Assembly: GCF_003572205.1 (NCBI RefSeq)
Contig: NZ_QXNY01000005.1
Span: 434,001 to 498,000, forward strand
Source of the DNA: Algihabitans albus
Lineage (GTDB): Bacteria; Pseudomonadota; Alphaproteobacteria; Kiloniellales; DSM-21159
Direction of reading: 5' to 3'
Length of the DNA stretch: 64,000 nt
In this document: piece by piece, positions 8,170-14,551 of the stretch
Layout: each line of letters opens with the position of its first letter
Position numbering within the stretch: position 1 is the first letter of the stretch
The notes under the pieces: generated by a model
The model's input: only the letters and a program-made list of their open reading frames with translations
Database searches by the model: none
Told to the model about the DNA's origin: nothing
Translations under genes and position numbers: made by a program

Positions 8170-8659
8170 AGGGTGCTTCCTTTACACTACTGATTCCGGG
8201 CAGCAAGGGCCGACCCGATCCTTCACGCCCAACGGCTCACAGGTCAAAGAGTTCCATGGCTCGAGGCGATCGGATGGGAATCCCAATGCTCCCTCGACTC
8301 AGACTGTTGGGATAAGCGGTGCCAATAGTCGGACCTGGACCAATCGGTGGCAGAACCGGTGTGAGAGGTAATCGAGCTTCGAAGCAGGGAACCGATTGAC
8401 CGGTTGTGGCATTGAATTAAATGCCACAACAAATGGGTTGATAAGCTGTCCTGCTCGCCTTGTCAGCGCTCCAAACTGGTTCTGGGCTATGGAGAATGCA
8501 CCGCTCCAGCGTCGAGCCGATGGCGGGTTCCCAATGCTTTTGTCATTAGCCCACGCCGTTATTCAACCGGCGTGGTGCCGGCTGCAGAGGGAGGCAGCTT
8601 AGCGGTGTCTCACTGGCGTCCGGAGACCGGAGGTTGCCGGGTAAGGGGAAGTTTTCCCG
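8170..8659. other. Intergenic region with two inverted repeats
   Basis: No convincing gene lies between the DUF1328 and MFS genes. Besides the sigma-EcfG motif, it holds a perfect 10-bp inverted repeat around an 8-nt AT-rich loop (8403-8430, arms GTTGTGGCAT) and an 8-bp inverted repeat (8551-8575, arms CCACGCCG). The second resembles a terminator stem but has no T-run on either side. The first could be an operator for the MFS gene; this is inference. Confidence 0.45.
8231..8255 (-). promoter_or_regulatory. Candidate sigma-EcfG promoter for DUF1328 gene
   Basis: On the minus strand it reads GGAAC, exactly 16 nt, CGTT. It sits about 60 nt upstream of the DUF1328 start, ideal placement for a promoter. 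Confidence 0.75.
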
Positions 8660-9907
8660 ATGGAAAACATCGAATCAGGTAAACGGGCAGCGTCGTTGAC
8701 CGTGTCGCGAGACGCGTTGATACACGTCGTCAGTCTTTCGGCCAGCAAAGTCGCTGACGGCTTTGTCGATCCCAAACTGGTCCTGTCATGGCTGTTGAAT
8801 GCCATGTGGGCTCCGGGCGCTGTCATCGGGGCTCTGGTTCCGATCCGTGAGGCGGGTGCGCTACTCCCACAGCTCGCGTTGGCTCCGCGCATCGGGGCCG
8901 CTCGCCTGCGCAAACTCTATTGGACAGCGGGATCTGTCGTGCAAGGTCTTGCTGCGATCGGCATAGCCGCAGCTGCTCTACTGTTGGAAGGCACAGCTGC
9001 CTGGGTGACCGTGCTCGTTTGCCTTGCAGCCCTATCGATCGCCCGTTCTGCCTGTTCCCTAAGTTACAAGGACGCCTTGGCCCGCACCGTGGAAGAAGGA
9101 CACCGCGGTCGTGTGATGGGGGCGGCGTCGAGCGTTGGCGCGCTCCTGGTCTTTGCCTTCGGTGCAGCTTTGGCCTCTCAGGTACTGCCTCTGACCGTTC
9201 CATCAATCGGCCTGATCGTCTGTGTTGCGGGCGCGCTCTGGCTTGGAGCTGCCGGCTTCTTCGTCCTTTTGCGAGAGCCGTCTCAAGGTGGAAACGCCGT
9301 TTCGGACGAGATCAAGGATCTGTTCGCTCCACTGTTCACCGACGGACAGTTGGCAAGGCTGGTCGTGGCGCGTGGGCTGCTGACCGCTACAGCACTGGCT
9401 CCTCCCTTCATCGTCATGCTTTCTGCGGCTGGAGACGAACAGAGGTTGGGTCAGCTTGGCCCCTTGGTGCTGGCATCGGCCGCCGCATCGATCGTTTCAG
9501 CCTATCTTTGGGGGCAGCTTTCGGATCGGTCGAGCCGCCGAACGCTCATGCTGTCGGGTGTCACCGGCGCCATCGTCCTGGGGATCTGTGCCACCACCGG
9601 CTACAGCCTTGGACATCTTGGTGGAGTCATCGGGTCGGTTTGCGCAATTTTCACTGCGCAGATTGCCTACGAGGGCGTCCGGTCCGGACGCAAGACGCAT
9701 ATGACGGATATGGCGTCCGACGACCTACGCGCCCGCTACACGGCTCTTTCGAACACCGCAATCGGGGTTTTGCTGCTGCTTGGTGGCGGTTTCGGCTTGC
9801 TTGCGGACGTGGCTGGCGTGCCGGCAGTCTTGGCAGTGTTCGCCCTGCTTTGTGCCTTCGCCGTACCGGTCGCGGCGTCCTTGAATGACGTGCAGCGTGG
9901 CGAATGA
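8660..9907 (+). CDS. MFS transporter
   Basis: A 415-residue major facilitator superfamily permease with about 12 hydrophobic segments. The loop containing YKDALARTVEEGHRGRVMG corresponds to the conserved cytoplasmic loop between helices 4 and 5 or so. The substrate cannot be assigned. ATG 8660 follows AAGGGGAAG, a good ribosome site. It lies on + among stress genes and is followed at 214 nt by a formate/nitrite-type channel gene. Confidence 0.8.
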   Translation: MENIESGKRAASLTVSRDALIHVVSLSASKVADGFVDPKLVLSWLLNAMWAPGAVIGALVPIREAGALLPQLALAPRIGAARLRKLYWTAGSVVQGLAAIGIAAAALLLEGTAAWVTVLVCLAALSIARSACSLSYKDALARTVEEGHRGRVMGAASSVGALLVFAFGAALASQVLPLTVPSIGLIVCVAGALWLGAAGFFVLLREPSQGGNAVSDEIKDLFAPLFTDGQLARLVVARGLLTATALAPPFIVMLSAAGDEQRLGQLGPLVLASAAASIVSAYLWGQLSDRSSRRTLMLSGVTGAIVLGICATTGYSLGHLGGVIGSVCAIFTAQIAYEGVRSGRKTHMTDMASDDLRARYTALSNTAIGVLLLLGGGFGLLADVAGVPAVLAVFALLCAFAVPVAASLNDVQRGE

Positions 9908-10121
9908 GACTCTCACGTGCAGGACAGTATAGACAACATCGTACTTGCTCAGCTTCGTGATCGCCGGCGCGATCCGATCGATCATGGTTCGCAGTTCCTG
10001 GGTGCGACACTCGTTTTGCTTCTTGTCTGGATCGCGGTTCAGGTTCCGCGTTTCGTCACAGTTTATCCGGGTCCGCGGTTGTCGCTTCGCAGCGCGTTGA
10101 TTTTGGGGAGGATCGCAACCT

Positions 10122-10943
10122 ATGAGCCGACCTGAGTTCGAGGAGCAGGAGCACGACAGGATCGAGGACCGCAGGCCTCTTTCAGGCAAAGAGACCTTCG
10201 AGGTCGTTCGGCGTGCCGGGGAGGAGGAGCTGACGCGGCCGTCGATCTCTCTTGCCTGGTCAGGGTTGGCCGCCGGTCTTGCGATCGGATTCTCGGTCAT
10301 TACAGAAGCCGCGTTCATGAAGTATCTGCCGGCTGAGGCTCTCTGGACTCCCTTGATCGCCAATATGGGATACACCGTCGGGTTCATTCTGGTGGTTCTG
10401 GCACGCTTTCAACTCTTCACCGAGAACACCATCACCCCAGTGATGCCAATCTGCTACGCCCCCACAAGTCAGAACCTCCTGGCATTACTGCGAAACTGGA
10501 CGGTTGTGTTTTCGGCGAACATGGTTGGTGCGATCCTGTTCGCCATATTCGTCATCCACACGGCCGCCGTCTCCGAGGAAATCAAGAACGGTGTGCTGGA
10601 GCTCGGTCGCCATGCGGCGGATGGCAGCTTCTTGAAAACTGTCGTTCAAGGGATCGGAGCGGGCTTTCTAATCGCAGCTCTGGTCTGGCTGCTGGCCAAC
10701 AGCAGAGGCGGTGAACTTTTGATCGTTTTTGTCGTCACCTATGTCATCGCGCTTGCCGGCTTCGCACATGTGATTGCTGGCGCAGTGGAGGTAGCTGCCT
10801 TGGTGCTGACGGAAGCGATGGGGGTGACACGGGCCTTCTTCGGTTTCGTGGTACCCGCGCTGCTTGGCAATGTAGTCGGCGGTACGGTGCTTTTTACGCT
10901 GATTGCCTATAGCCAAGTCCGCGAGGAGCTGGGGCAAGGGTGA
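10122..10943 (+). CDS. Formate/nitrite transporter (FNT) family protein, YfdC-like
   Basis: A 273-residue member of the FNT channel family, nearest in style to YfdC. A charged cytoplasmic N-terminus of about 40 residues is followed by six hydrophobic segments, with family blocks such as FTENTITPVMP and FAHVIAGAVEV. FNT proteins conduct small monovalent anions; YfdC-type members have no settled substrate. Its stop overlaps the next gene's GTG start (GTGA, 10940-10943), so the two are probably translationally coupled. Confidence 0.85.
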   Translation: MSRPEFEEQEHDRIEDRRPLSGKETFEVVRRAGEEELTRPSISLAWSGLAAGLAIGFSVITEAAFMKYLPAEALWTPLIANMGYTVGFILVVLARFQLFTENTITPVMPICYAPTSQNLLALLRNWTVVFSANMVGAILFAIFVIHTAAVSEEIKNGVLELGRHAADGSFLKTVVQGIGAGFLIAALVWLLANSRGGELLIVFVVTYVIALAGFAHVIAGAVEVAALVLTEAMGVTRAFFGFVVPALLGNVVGGTVLFTLIAYSQVREELGQG

Positions 10944-11929
10944 CTGTCGCCAGTCCCAATCGGATTCAGCGGACCGGCGATGACCGGCCCGTTTCCGGCC
11001 TCTATCAGTTTGTCTGGCGGATGAGCGGCTGGCGGCAAGCGACCGCCGTTCTGCTGTCTTTGATTGTCGCCGGCCTAAGTGTCGTTCCTCTTGAACTTCA
11101 GCGTAGAATTCTCGATCAAGCCGTCGCCGACAACGATTTGGAATTGCTCTGGATACTGGCCGCCAGCTATCTGGGCGTCGTTCTGGCGAACGGAGGTATC
11201 AAGCTGGGCTTGCGCCTCTACCAAAGCTGGATGTCGGAGAGCGCCATCCTCTATTGCCGGCGCCACCTAGCGGATCTCCATCGTGCGAAGCAGTCGCAGG
11301 CAACGGACAAAGGCACCGCGATTACCATCGTCAACAAGGAGATCGAGGCAGTTGGCGGCTTCGTCGGGCCAGCTCTCTCCGATCCCGCACGTCACGTTGG
11401 GTTGCTGGTCTCGATCCTGGGCTACATGGCTATCGTTGAACCCCTGATCGCTTTTGTAAGCTTGGCGTTCCTTGCGCCGCAAGTTGCCCTGGCGCCCATC
11501 ATTCAGCGTAAGCTCAATACCTTGATCGAGGATCGGATTGATCTGCTGCGCTCGATCAGCGAGCAACTGGCAGACACCACGAGTGACACATCGAAGAGCC
11601 CGGGGTTTCGACAAAAGACTTTGCGCGTCTACGGAAACCGCATGCGTTTCTTCTTCTGGAAGTTTTCGGGCAAGGCAGTGCTGAATCTGATGAACAGTCT
11701 GGCACCCCTGTCGGTCTTAGTCCTCGGTGGGTGGATGGTCGTAGAGGGGCGCACCGAGATCGGAGTTGTCGTCGCCTTTATGTCGGGCTTTCATCGATTG
11801 GCCGAGCCACTTCGAGAGCTGATCGCCTACTATCGCCTGTCTGCGCAGACCGCGGTTCAGCACGCCCTTATCGCACGCTGGATGATGAGGGACGGAGCTG
11901 TAGCCGGTGAGACAACCGGCAGCGCGTAA
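10940..11929 (+). CDS. ABC transporter membrane domain without ATPase
   Basis: A 329-residue protein that looks like the exporter-type ABC transmembrane domain (six hydrophobic segments, with the long cytoplasmic helices of an ABC_membrane fold). It stops after the last helix, where a half-transporter would begin its nucleotide-binding domain. No Walker A, signature or Walker B motif exists in it or in the following 400 nt. The GTG start overlaps the FNT stop. It may pair with an ATPase encoded elsewhere, be a truncated remnant, or act with the FNT channel. The intact reading frame and tight coupling argue against simple decay. Confidence 0.72.
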   Translation: MTVASPNRIQRTGDDRPVSGLYQFVWRMSGWRQATAVLLSLIVAGLSVVPLELQRRILDQAVADNDLELLWILAASYLGVVLANGGIKLGLRLYQSWMSESAILYCRRHLADLHRAKQSQATDKGTAITIVNKEIEAVGGFVGPALSDPARHVGLLVSILGYMAIVEPLIAFVSLAFLAPQVALAPIIQRKLNTLIEDRIDLLRSISEQLADTTSDTSKSPGFRQKTLRVYGNRMRFFFWKFSGKAVLNLMNSLAPLSVLVLGGWMVVEGRTEIGVVVAFMSGFHRLAEPLRELIAYYRLSAQTAVQHALIARWMMRDGAVAGETTGSA

Positions 11930-12086
11930 TAGGTTGTCGTCATGGCCTTGGTGTTGACTGCGCGGCCTGCTCTTGGGTGTCGTGGTCTTGGATTGCCAGT
12001 CGGGGTCGAGAGTCACGGCTAGGTCAAGCTCCGAGACAGTGCAATTCCAAGTCGGTCAGCAGCTTCGTGATCTTTCTTTTTCGGTG

Positions 12087-12112
12087 GGAACCGGATGCCA
12101 TGCTGCGGCGTT
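12087..12112 (+). promoter_or_regulatory. Candidate sigma-EcfG promoter
   Basis: GGAAC, 17 nt, CGTT on the plus strand, about 220 nt upstream of the membrane-protein start at 12331. The rest of the 11930-12330 gap shows no gene. The first spacer bases (CGGATG) match those of the phyR promoter at 22788. Confidence 0.6.
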
Positions 12113-12330
12113 GCGGCAACGAGGACCGTTTAGCCCGAGGAGCGGGGCCGGTTCAGAAACGATGCAGATCGCGTCGAGACGTCAAGGTCGCTTGTCCGGC
12201 GGTTGGCCTTAAGAGGACCGGTTGCGGGGACGCCGCCGTATCTTCGCTGGCCCCATGGCGCGATGACACTCTGTGATATGGCCGCCTCGCATCGGATTTT
12301 GACTAAGTGAAAGACAGGGAGTCCAGGCAG

Positions 12331-12948
12331 ATGACCTATGGTGATGACGTGGTTGATGAGCGCAGTCGGCGTGAGCGGGTAGCGGAAGCCGCCGGCCGCA
12401 TTGGCCGCACTGCCAGGGATCGCGGCGGCGAGGCCGCCAACCGTGCGGTCGGTTTTGCTCGGGAGAACCCCTTCCCGACGGCACTGGCCGGGCTCGGCCT
12501 AGGCTTGCTGGCGGTCGCGGTGCTGGGCGGAAGCGGCCTGCGGCGTCGCGTGCGAGAGAGAGGTGCCGCGGTCGGCAGCTCCGCACAGGACCGTCCCTGG
12601 ACGGTCGGAGCCGCGGCCTTCGGTCTGGGAGCTGCCGCTGGATACCTATTGCCCCGCGCCGCGGCCAGCCTGCAGGACCGCTGGGATCACGATGCGGACG
12701 GCGACAGCGCGACAGAGTTCGAGGACGAACTGCAGGGCGAGGGCGACTACCAGGCCGCGCGCCGCTACCGAGAGGCAACCGAAGCCTTCGTCGAAGACGA
12801 TAATCCCACTGCGCGTGCCCGCGCAGCGGCGGAAGAGTGGGCGAGAGAGCCGGCTGCCTTACGCCGGGCCGAGGCTGCAGGACGGCGCCCGGCGGAGGGC
12901 TCCGCTTCGAGAGGCCGGAAGCCGACTAAGCTCGGTAACGGTGTTTGA
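12331..12948 (+). CDS. Small membrane-anchored hypothetical protein
   Basis: A 205-residue protein of unknown function. A charged N-terminal helix (residues 1-45) precedes two hydrophobic Gly/Ala-rich segments (about 47-67 and 90-110). An acidic then Arg/Ala-rich tail follows. The plan resembles YqjD/DUF883- or DUF3618-type stress membrane proteins, like those encoded at 14552-16402. ATG 12331 was preferred to the upstream GTG at 12307 because GGGAG/AGGCAG precedes it. A sigma-EcfG motif upstream suggests stress control. Confidence 0.6.
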   Translation: MTYGDDVVDERSRRERVAEAAGRIGRTARDRGGEAANRAVGFARENPFPTALAGLGLGLLAVAVLGGSGLRRRVRERGAAVGSSAQDRPWTVGAAAFGLGAAAGYLLPRAAASLQDRWDHDADGDSATEFEDELQGEGDYQAARRYREATEAFVEDDNPTARARAAAEEWAREPAALRRAEAAGRRPAEGSASRGRKPTKLGNGV

Positions 12949-13056
12949 AGCCTCGAAACCAGACCGCCTTTAGGTTGCGTCGAATGAGCAGGCCAGGACG
13001 GGAATAGCGCTCCATGGCGATCCGGTTCTAACACGGCTCGACTGTGAAGGTCTGAA

Positions 13057-13094
13057 TCAGGAACCCCGTCCGCATTGGCGGACGGGGTTCCTGA
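13057..13094. terminator. 17-bp perfect inverted repeat, likely terminator
   Basis: Two 17-nt arms pair perfectly around the loop ATTG (arm TCAGGAACCCCGTCCGC). It lies about 110 nt after the stop at 12948 and before the AI-2E-type gene. No clear T-run follows on either strand, so it could be a Rho-aided terminator or a structural repeat. Confidence 0.5.
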
Positions 13095-13304
13095 AGGAGG
13101 GCATTCACTTCAATGCGATGCCACAGAGGACATCGGCTTAAAAACATCGCAACGCGAATAAAGTTCCCGCGCGCGGGTCTTTTCTTGATCGGTCGGTTCA
13201 CAACTGGCTCTCTGTCGGTTCGGAGTTGTACGAACACTCTCTCATCAACGGAAACAGGTTAGCAGCAAACCCCTTTCCTGCAGGGCTTTGCTCAGAAAGA
13301 GGCT

Positions 13305-14417
13305 ATGGTGCAAGAGCAGAGCGAGGGGAACGTCGGTCAGTCACCGCGCCCACTTGTCGAGCTGCCAAAGTCGGTCGGCGCTGCGATTATGGTGATCGCC
13401 GTAGTGGCTCTGTTCAGCGCTCTCTATCTGGCCCGGGCGCTATTCCTTCCGATTTTTCTTGCGATCATCCTCTCACTGACACTCCAGCCGATCGTGCGGA
13501 CGCTGTCTCGGCGCGGTCTGCCGGCAGGGTTTATCTCGATTTTGCTGATCCTGCTTCTGGCATCGGGGCTTCTCGTTGTCGCGACAGGTCTGTCGCAGCC
13601 CGTGCAGCAGTGGATCGACGACGCGCCACGGATCGCCTTCATCGCCAAACAGCGCCTTGGCGACCTCACCCAACCGATGGAGGCGATACGTCAGGCCGAA
13701 GAGCAGGTGCAGGCCATCGCCGACAGTCCAGACAGCACGGCTGCCGAGGTGGTCGTCAGGCAAGGCGGTTTCATGTCCCGCACCGCCGACGACGTTGTTT
13801 CCATCGCGGCCACCATTCTGATAACGCTTGCACTCTCACTCTTCATTCTGGCGCACAGCGACACTTTCTATGAGAAGCTTATCAAGTCGCTACCACGGCT
13901 GAGCGACAAGAAACGGGCTTTCCGGATCTTCATAGATACTGAGCGAACCGTTTCGCGCTACCTGCTCACTATCGCGGCGATTAACCTCACCCTCGGCTTG
14001 GCTGTCGGCGCGGTCATGGCGCTCCTGGGGCTCCCCGATCCCTTCCTCTGGGGGCTCTTGGCGGGCTTGCTCAACTTCATGCCTTATCTCGGCGCGTTGG
14101 TCGGCTTGAGTTTCGTATCGGTCGCTGCTCTCATTACCTTCGACAGCATCGGATATGCGGCTCTGATCCCTCTCTCCTACTTCGCCTTGACGACATTGGA
14201 GGGGCACTTTTTGACGCCGATCATTCTCGGACGTCAGCTCAAGCTGAATGCCGTTGCGATCCTTTTGTCGGTTCTGATCTGGGGCTTCGTTTGGGGGATC
14301 ATCGGGATGCTGATCGCGGTGCCCATCCTGATCATCGTCAAGGTTTTCTGCGATCACGTGGAGAGCCTGAAGCCCTTTGGCGAGTTTCTGTCGGCTGCGG
14401 ACCGCGATACGCGTTAG
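13305..14417 (+). CDS. AI-2E family transporter (PerM/TqsA-like)
   Basis: A 370-residue integral membrane protein with the AI-2E exporter family layout. An N-terminal helix pair (about 25-85) is followed by a long amphipathic cytoplasmic region (to about 160). The conserved C-terminal helices include TLEGHFLTPIILGRQLKLNA and the GILIAVP-type ending. The family includes TqsA and Na+/H+ antiporters, so the substrate is not assigned. GAAAGAGG precedes ATG 13305. It is separated from the next gene by a sigma-EcfG promoter. Confidence 0.85.
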   Translation: MVQEQSEGNVGQSPRPLVELPKSVGAAIMVIAVVALFSALYLARALFLPIFLAIILSLTLQPIVRTLSRRGLPAGFISILLILLLASGLLVVATGLSQPVQQWIDDAPRIAFIAKQRLGDLTQPMEAIRQAEEQVQAIADSPDSTAAEVVVRQGGFMSRTADDVVSIAATILITLALSLFILAHSDTFYEKLIKSLPRLSDKKRAFRIFIDTERTVSRYLLTIAAINLTLGLAVGAVMALLGLPDPFLWGLLAGLLNFMPYLGALVGLSFVSVAALITFDSIGYAALIPLSYFALTTLEGHFLTPIILGRQLKLNAVAILLSVLIWGFVWGIIGMLIAVPILIIVKVFCDHVESLKPFGEFLSAADRDTR

Positions 14418-14474
14418 CTCGGCAGGCTGTCCGGCCCGGCGACCTCGGTGCTCGATCGCTTGCATCGAAAAATC

Positions 14475-14499
14475 GGAACTCTAGGCGGATCGTTGCGTT
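14475..14499 (+). promoter_or_regulatory. Candidate sigma-EcfG promoter for four-gene operon
   Basis: GGAAC, exactly 16 nt, CGTT, ending 52 nt before the ATG of the operon's first gene (14552). Placement and exact consensus make this one of the strongest motif sites in the window. Confidence 0.8.
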
Positions 14500-14551
14500 G
14501 CTTCGGGAGATATCGATCCGACGTCTAGCGAAAACGGAATGGTCCTTCCTC

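Follow-up and report, generated by a model that had tools for sequence, protein, structure and literature searches.

An ATPase-less family of ABC exporter membrane domains with eroded coupling loops, encoded next to an FNT channel gene in Algihabitans albus

Organization of the locus

We analyzed a stretch of 64,000 nucleotides from Algihabitans albus (contig NZ_QXNY01000005.1, positions 434,001 to 498,000; hereafter the window), in which a gene for a YfdC-like channel of the FNT family (10122..10943, forward strand) is followed by a gene for an ABC exporter membrane domain that lacks an ATPase (10940..11929, forward strand). The FNT gene starts with ATG, encodes 273 amino acids matching Pfam PF01226 with 164.1 bits (cut-off 34.6), and has GGGGAGGA upstream at 10105-10112. 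The second gene starts with GTG, with GAGGAG 11 nt before it, and encodes a protein of 329 amino acids with six transmembrane (TM) helices, which we call T and whose relatives form family T. In the sequence, the stop of the former and the start of the latter overlap by the four nucleotides GTGA (10940..10943, forward strand). A reading of the window made from its sequence only had described two intact genes overlapping by 4 nt, with an ATPase-less ABC fold translated after an FNT channel and ending where its nucleotide-binding domain should begin; all of this held in our analysis. Farther upstream lies an MFS transporter gene (8660..9907, forward strand; Pfam MFS_1, 51.2 bits). Most of the gap before the FNT gene is occupied by an open reading frame of 72 amino acids (9917-10135) with a possible TM segment and no Pfam match.

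The FNT protein resembles E. coli YfdC and FocA in its PF01226 domain and in one His residue common to all three, which we take to be the pore His, and differs from them in its low identity (33% to YfdC and 26% to FocA over 148 residues). Among the literature matches listed, none reported an ABC-fold partner of YfdC/FocA FNT channels. The window T protein matched ABC_membrane of Pfam weakly (24.5 bits, cut-off 28) and gave no other Pfam match at an E-value of 0.1, the ATPase domain included. Its C-terminus falls just past TM6, as delimited by the model helices, which is where the ATPase domain would be expected to start. With the ATPase portions of MsbA, MdlB, and full-length relatives as queries, tblastn detected no ATPase remnant in 11926-14500 (best E-value 0.087).

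Fold and coupling loops of T

The AlphaFold model of the window T protein (pLDDT 92.1, built with 70 sequences) has six TM helices in the type IV exporter fold, and structure comparison aligned 306 residues with TmrAB (Z 24.2, rmsd 4.0). SbmA was absent among the 50 structure matches listed, which is uninformative either way. At the tips of intracellular loops 1 (residues 108-124; 11261..11311, forward strand) and 2 (residues 205-230; 11552..11629, forward strand), the expected sites of coupling helices 1 and 2, the model has plain loops at residues 118-124 and 213-220, respectively, and no coupling helix at either. By model, loop length, and conservation, the first tip is eroded and the second both eroded and shortened. 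The corresponding control, an AlphaFold model of a full-length relative, reached a pLDDT of 63 and was too poor to confirm coupling helices in the same way.

Loop lengths were counted between conserved residues, from R107 to E134 for loop 1 and from R204 to K241 for loop 2. The two loops measure 29 and 46 residues in MsbA, MdlA, and MdlB (3/3) as well as in every one of the 22 full-length relatives, and the same lengths recurred in seven of nine further exporters, the other two having 27/46 and 29/49. Eight of these nine are stretches from the window's genome, including two that together make up a single protein, and the ninth is from locus L079; they remained from 12 rows after L163 and L144 (already counted) and a T-protein row of L079 had been set aside, while L165 was dropped for its low score and L156, L159, and L166 yielded no row. 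Among the 70 T proteins, loop 1 ranges from 22 to 47 residues (29 in 10/70) and loop 2 from 30 to 51, with the length of 46 found in none. The mean frequency of the most common residue in T is 0.27 and 0.28 at the two loop tips versus 0.52-0.62 in the TM helices; in the full-length set it is 0.73 and 0.78 versus 0.76-0.88, values inflated because the relatives compared are close kin. Judged by sequences and model alike, T has evidently lost the docking points for an ATPase and would not dock one in the usual way.

These loops bear on the idea that T relies on an ATPase provided in trans, or pairs, itself lacking an ATPase, with a full-length relative of the same genome in a heterodimer. Such relatives occur frequently across the order and class, one (L002) being encoded in the window's genome, and there is a precedent in YddA-type membrane domains, which sit on separate genes from their ATPases according to PMC13316013. 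However, loop 2 departs from 46 residues in 70/70 T proteins, and both tips have lost conservation. The orphan ATPase for which the sequence-only reading had advised a search did not appear either: in the window's genome, one exporter ATPase used as query revealed no standalone ATPase of the exporter type, its 11 best matches (at least 138 bits) lying in frames of 593-1305 amino acids that also carry ABC_membrane and the next, in shorter frames, reaching at most 110.9 bits. All 13 ABC_membrane matches in this genome fall in frames of at least 593 amino acids. A gene resembling the MsbA/MdlB ATPase occurs within 1 kb of T in just 5 of 90 T loci (L069-L071, L079, and L134), and among these it is on the same strand only in L069-L071, which are near relatives. 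We therefore regard a trans ATPase or heterodimer as improbable.

Extent and conservation of family T

Relatives were collected with an alignment of 14 members, including the window protein; a single-sequence query retrieved none from genome contigs. Of the 252 relative-encoding stretches found by the alignment search, the best 80 were kept, four of which were already in the set. The same architecture, in which the matched membrane domain is followed by 0-21 residues, was present in 94 loci (the window included; four contigs counted twice), and this recurrence makes the ATPase-less architecture more than chance. Family T was found in 36 of 387 alphaproteobacterial genomes sampled, at 37 places that score 269.6 bits or more and have intact reading frames of 305-527 amino acids; the remaining matches in that sample (at most 248.3 bits) were mostly full-length transporters of 884-1386 amino acids, besides a small number of shorter or cut frames. 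Among 397 genomes sampled across the phylum, the 18 with a match at 1e-60, to T or full-length proteins, all belonged to the class of the window. Named rhizobia are among the carriers of family T. Three of the 80 loci kept bear record titles of Betaproteobacteria. The titles of L066 and L114 name Oceanobacillus and Mycobacterium, labels that may be wrong since family T is otherwise alphaproteobacterial.

Across 36 pairs of T members with 70-98% identity, dN/dS was 0.036-0.314, and thus the T genes are maintained by purifying selection. The proposal that T is a recent truncation or a pseudogene can point to L106, where the gene is split into two frames, and to L145, where it is as well. Against it stand the family-wide absence of the ATPase, the purifying selection, and the lack of a downstream remnant, on the strength of which we rejected it for family T and give it next to no credence. 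A full-length ABC gene at this locus in relatives, named beforehand as the observation that would point to recent truncation, was not found; T lacked the ATPase in the loci examined. The comparisons instead indicate that the ATPase-less state belongs to a conserved alphaproteobacterial family and is no recent loss. Among the literature matches listed, no title concerned family T. We consider that T represents an ATPase-less ABC-fold family without an existing name, its docking loops erased, and that this is a stronger finding than a complex with the FNT channel.

Ancestry and comparison with known systems

The known example, in the source cited here (PMC13316013, 2026), of an ABC membrane domain turned secondary transporter is SbmA/BacA; SbmA is proton-driven and evolved from such a domain by losing the ATPase and the coupling helices. 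T is like the SbmA/BacA group (SLiPT, PF05992) in having the TM1-6 fold of type IV exporters, no ATPase, and no coupling helices. Unlike SbmA/BacA, T lacks the TM0 pair, its model showing six TM helices, and PF05992 matched 0/70 T members, whereas ABC_membrane matched 70/70, one of which also matched MadM at an E-value of 0.01. The T profile gave an hhalign probability of 0.1% to E. coli SbmA and 90% to MsbA, and no match to YddA, the targets being single sequences in each case. On these near-zero values, set against that for MsbA, we rejected descent of T from SbmA/YddA; T would belong to another ABC lineage than SbmA/BacA.

The closest full-length relatives found for T are alphaproteobacterial ABC exporters of about 900 amino acids (L002, L146, and others), which share with it K88, E100, R107, E134, F141, R204, K241, and N249. 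They differ from T by their ATPase domain (detected as ABC_tran in L146) and by coupling loops that measure 29/46 residues. In L002, L013-L032, and L146 the ATPase domain is apparently split by a long insertion, the matches in L146 lying around residues 387-485 and 748-903; no NCBIfam model exceeded its cut-off among the 25 matches listed for L146. A further set from copper operons (group R; L046-L048 and L141-L143) resembles T in lacking the ATPase and in its short coupling loops (25 and 39-41 residues), but its members are 24-29% identical to T, are 389-465 amino acids long, and branch with the full-length family. Genes for a multicopper oxidase, CopB, and azurin-like proteins or cytochrome c, typical of copper resistance, neighbor group R, and L141 and L142 lie on plasmids typed as conjugative.

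A tree of 24 of the 70 T proteins, 11 of the 22 full-length relatives, six group R proteins, and nine outgroup proteins, with loop tips left out and a warning of long outgroup branches, placed T, the full-length relatives, and group R in one group apart from other exporters (100/99). Group R fell with the full-length family (99/94; FastTree 0.995), and therefore a second loss of the ATPase is suggested. A clade of T and R was not rejected (p-AU 0.061), and the unity of T itself received weak support (42/93). On this sequence phylogeny, two losses, in T and in R, are favored over one.

Genes next to T

The sequence-only reading had supposed that the FNT-T pair could form a new kind of membrane complex and had advised looking for the pair in other genomes. 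In fetched flanks, mostly of up to 8 kb, BLAST detected FNT genes at 4 of 99 loci, 90 of which are T loci: the window, L067, L062, and L040. In Thalassobaculum litoreum (L067) the FNT gene adjoins T, with mfd on the side of T; in Nisaea (L062) one DUF2177 gene separates the two; and in L040, at a contig edge, they are divergent with one gene between them. Genome G438 (L169), 99.8-100% identical to L067, was not counted again. L170, close to Thalassobaculum, has both genes at this mfd locus, separated by 2.2 kb, and in G037 and G038 roughly 10 kb lie between FNT and T, which places FNT beyond the flanks of T first fetched. In two related metagenome-assembled genomes (L061 and L078), T stands beside the same mfd gene and FNT is absent there. 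The closest FNT protein found, 63% identical, comes from G182, whose genome has no match to T at 1e-60 and whose FNT gene has no T within the surrounding 13 kb.

Co-occurrence of FNT and T exceeded chance, with kinship uncorrected, both in the order (61 genomes: 7 with both, 1 with T only, 4 with FNT only, and 49 with neither; p = 5.7e-6) and in the class (387 genomes: 9, 27, 13, and 338, respectively; p = 4e-5). The pairing recurs in a few lineages and was not general; it is real but narrow, with FNT an occasional and not a fixed partner. A dedicated FNT-T complex is unlikely. The 4-nt overlap in the window, the adjacent or nearby genes in L067, L062, L170, G037, and G038, the co-occurrence, and the arginines specific to T would all suit a two-part complex cooperating in anion transport; L061 and L078, which have T but no FNT at that locus, FNT without T in G182, and a pairing confined to 4 of 99 loci speak against it, and we hold such a complex to be highly improbable.

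Other genes take the upstream position elsewhere. An MgtA-type P-ATPase gene overlaps T by 8 nt in Azospirillum (L033), an MFS gene whose product is 49% identical to that encoded at 8660..9907 of the window lies directly upstream in L039, and CBS-domain and small genes precede T on Rhizobium plasmids. At six Mesorhizobium loci the upstream frame overlaps T by 4 nt and clusters with P-type ATPases, and the two products scanned with Pfam (L103 and L112) matched Cation_ATPase_N only. These frames (L100, L102, L103, L104, L108, and L112) are N-terminal stubs of P-type ATPases, of 141-210 amino acids. In Mesorhizobium the P-ATPase partner has decayed and T has been retained. Judging by these stubs, and by L061 and L078, where T has no FNT gene next to it, partner genes of T are disposable.

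SUR, which modulates a K+ channel, offers a model for a different role, in which T would be no transporter but a regulatory or structural membrane subunit attached to the FNT channel, MgtA-type P-ATPase, or MFS protein encoded upstream. Transporter genes do lie immediately upstream on the same strand (FNT in the window and L067, MFS in L039, MgtA in L033), and conserved residues are retained toward either end of the TM bundle, as placed by the model helix limits. However, the upstream genes vary widely between loci, so that no partner is constant, and in Mesorhizobium T is under selection beside a truncated P-ATPase. We judge a subunit role rather unlikely, if a more serious contender than the complex with FNT.

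In loci of Sulfitobacter, Thalassospira, and Kordiimonadales/Minwuia (L065, L068, L073, L074, L081-L085, L088, L106, and L123), T is repeatedly found close to genes for acyl-CoA carboxylase (biotin carboxylase and carboxyltransferase) or to catabolic genes linked with them, reflecting either inherited synteny or a functional hint.

Proposed mechanism

Because T has shed both the ATPase and the coupling loops, it probably works without ATP. The reading that we prefer, by a small measure over doubt and by analogy as well as sequence, is that T is an ATP-independent, gradient-driven transporter and that FNT and T are co-regulated modules without an obligatory complex. As its fold family suggests, T would form a homodimer and undergo alternating access without ATP in the manner of SbmA/BacA, its substrate moving down its own gradient or driven by that of an ion. 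Within the lineage of the window, T and the YfdC-like FNT channel would be translationally coupled and belong to one stress island, acting as co-regulated modules and not as subunits of an obligatory complex. Residues typical of T are P50, Q54, R56, R/K286, and R299, among which R56, R/K286, and R299 are basic gains, so that T may possibly carry anionic substrates. T has gained no acidic residue; E100, E134, and E/D136, the candidate counterparts of the SLiPT glutamate ladder, are conserved in sequence but common to ATP-driven relatives, so that a proton ladder of the SbmA type does not follow from them.

With its clear full-length sisters, T offers a natural experiment on which losses and gains allow an ABC domain to work without ATP. 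It would be a compact second lineage beside SbmA/BacA, and is an uncharacterized membrane protein present in 36 of the 387 alphaproteobacterial genomes sampled. A wider generalization, toward which we are somewhat more hesitant than inclined, would be that ABC exporters have repeatedly yielded ATP-independent transporters (SbmA/BacA, family T, and separately group R), gradient-driven or facilitating and employed under stress and low oxygen.

Regulatory context

The neighbors of T and the sites upstream of it suggest that T may serve stress or low-oxygen programs. As the EcfG-like general-stress site we assumed GGAAC-N15-18-CGTT, and the consensus of the FNR/FixK-like box was likewise assumed. 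The whole window contains 11 EcfG-like sites versus 1.8 expected, all within 2888-26358. CsbD, PLD, AI-2E, Crp-type, and holin-like genes lie nearby, and this EcfG-rich region looks like a general stress island. For the FNT-T pair itself we found no link to a stress promoter, just EcfG-like sites with one mismatch at 8388 and 10029.

In the following counts related loci are included repeatedly. EcfG-like sites lie within 250 nt upstream of T in 6/90 cases, of other genes in 26/1187, and of random places in 25/4500, and within 150 nt of T in 3/90 versus 22/1187 for other genes, a slight excess. FNR/FixK-like boxes occur within 1.5 kb upstream of T in 21/90 cases, mainly in Rhizobium and Mesorhizobium, of other genes in 67/1059, and of random places in 262/4500; within 300 nt the counts are 7/90 for T versus 33/1059 for other genes. 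Such upstream sites weakly tie T to stress and low-oxygen programs. At the Mesorhizobium loci with P-ATPase stubs (L100, L102-L104, L108, and L112), the FNR/FixK-like box lies 455-659 nt upstream of T.
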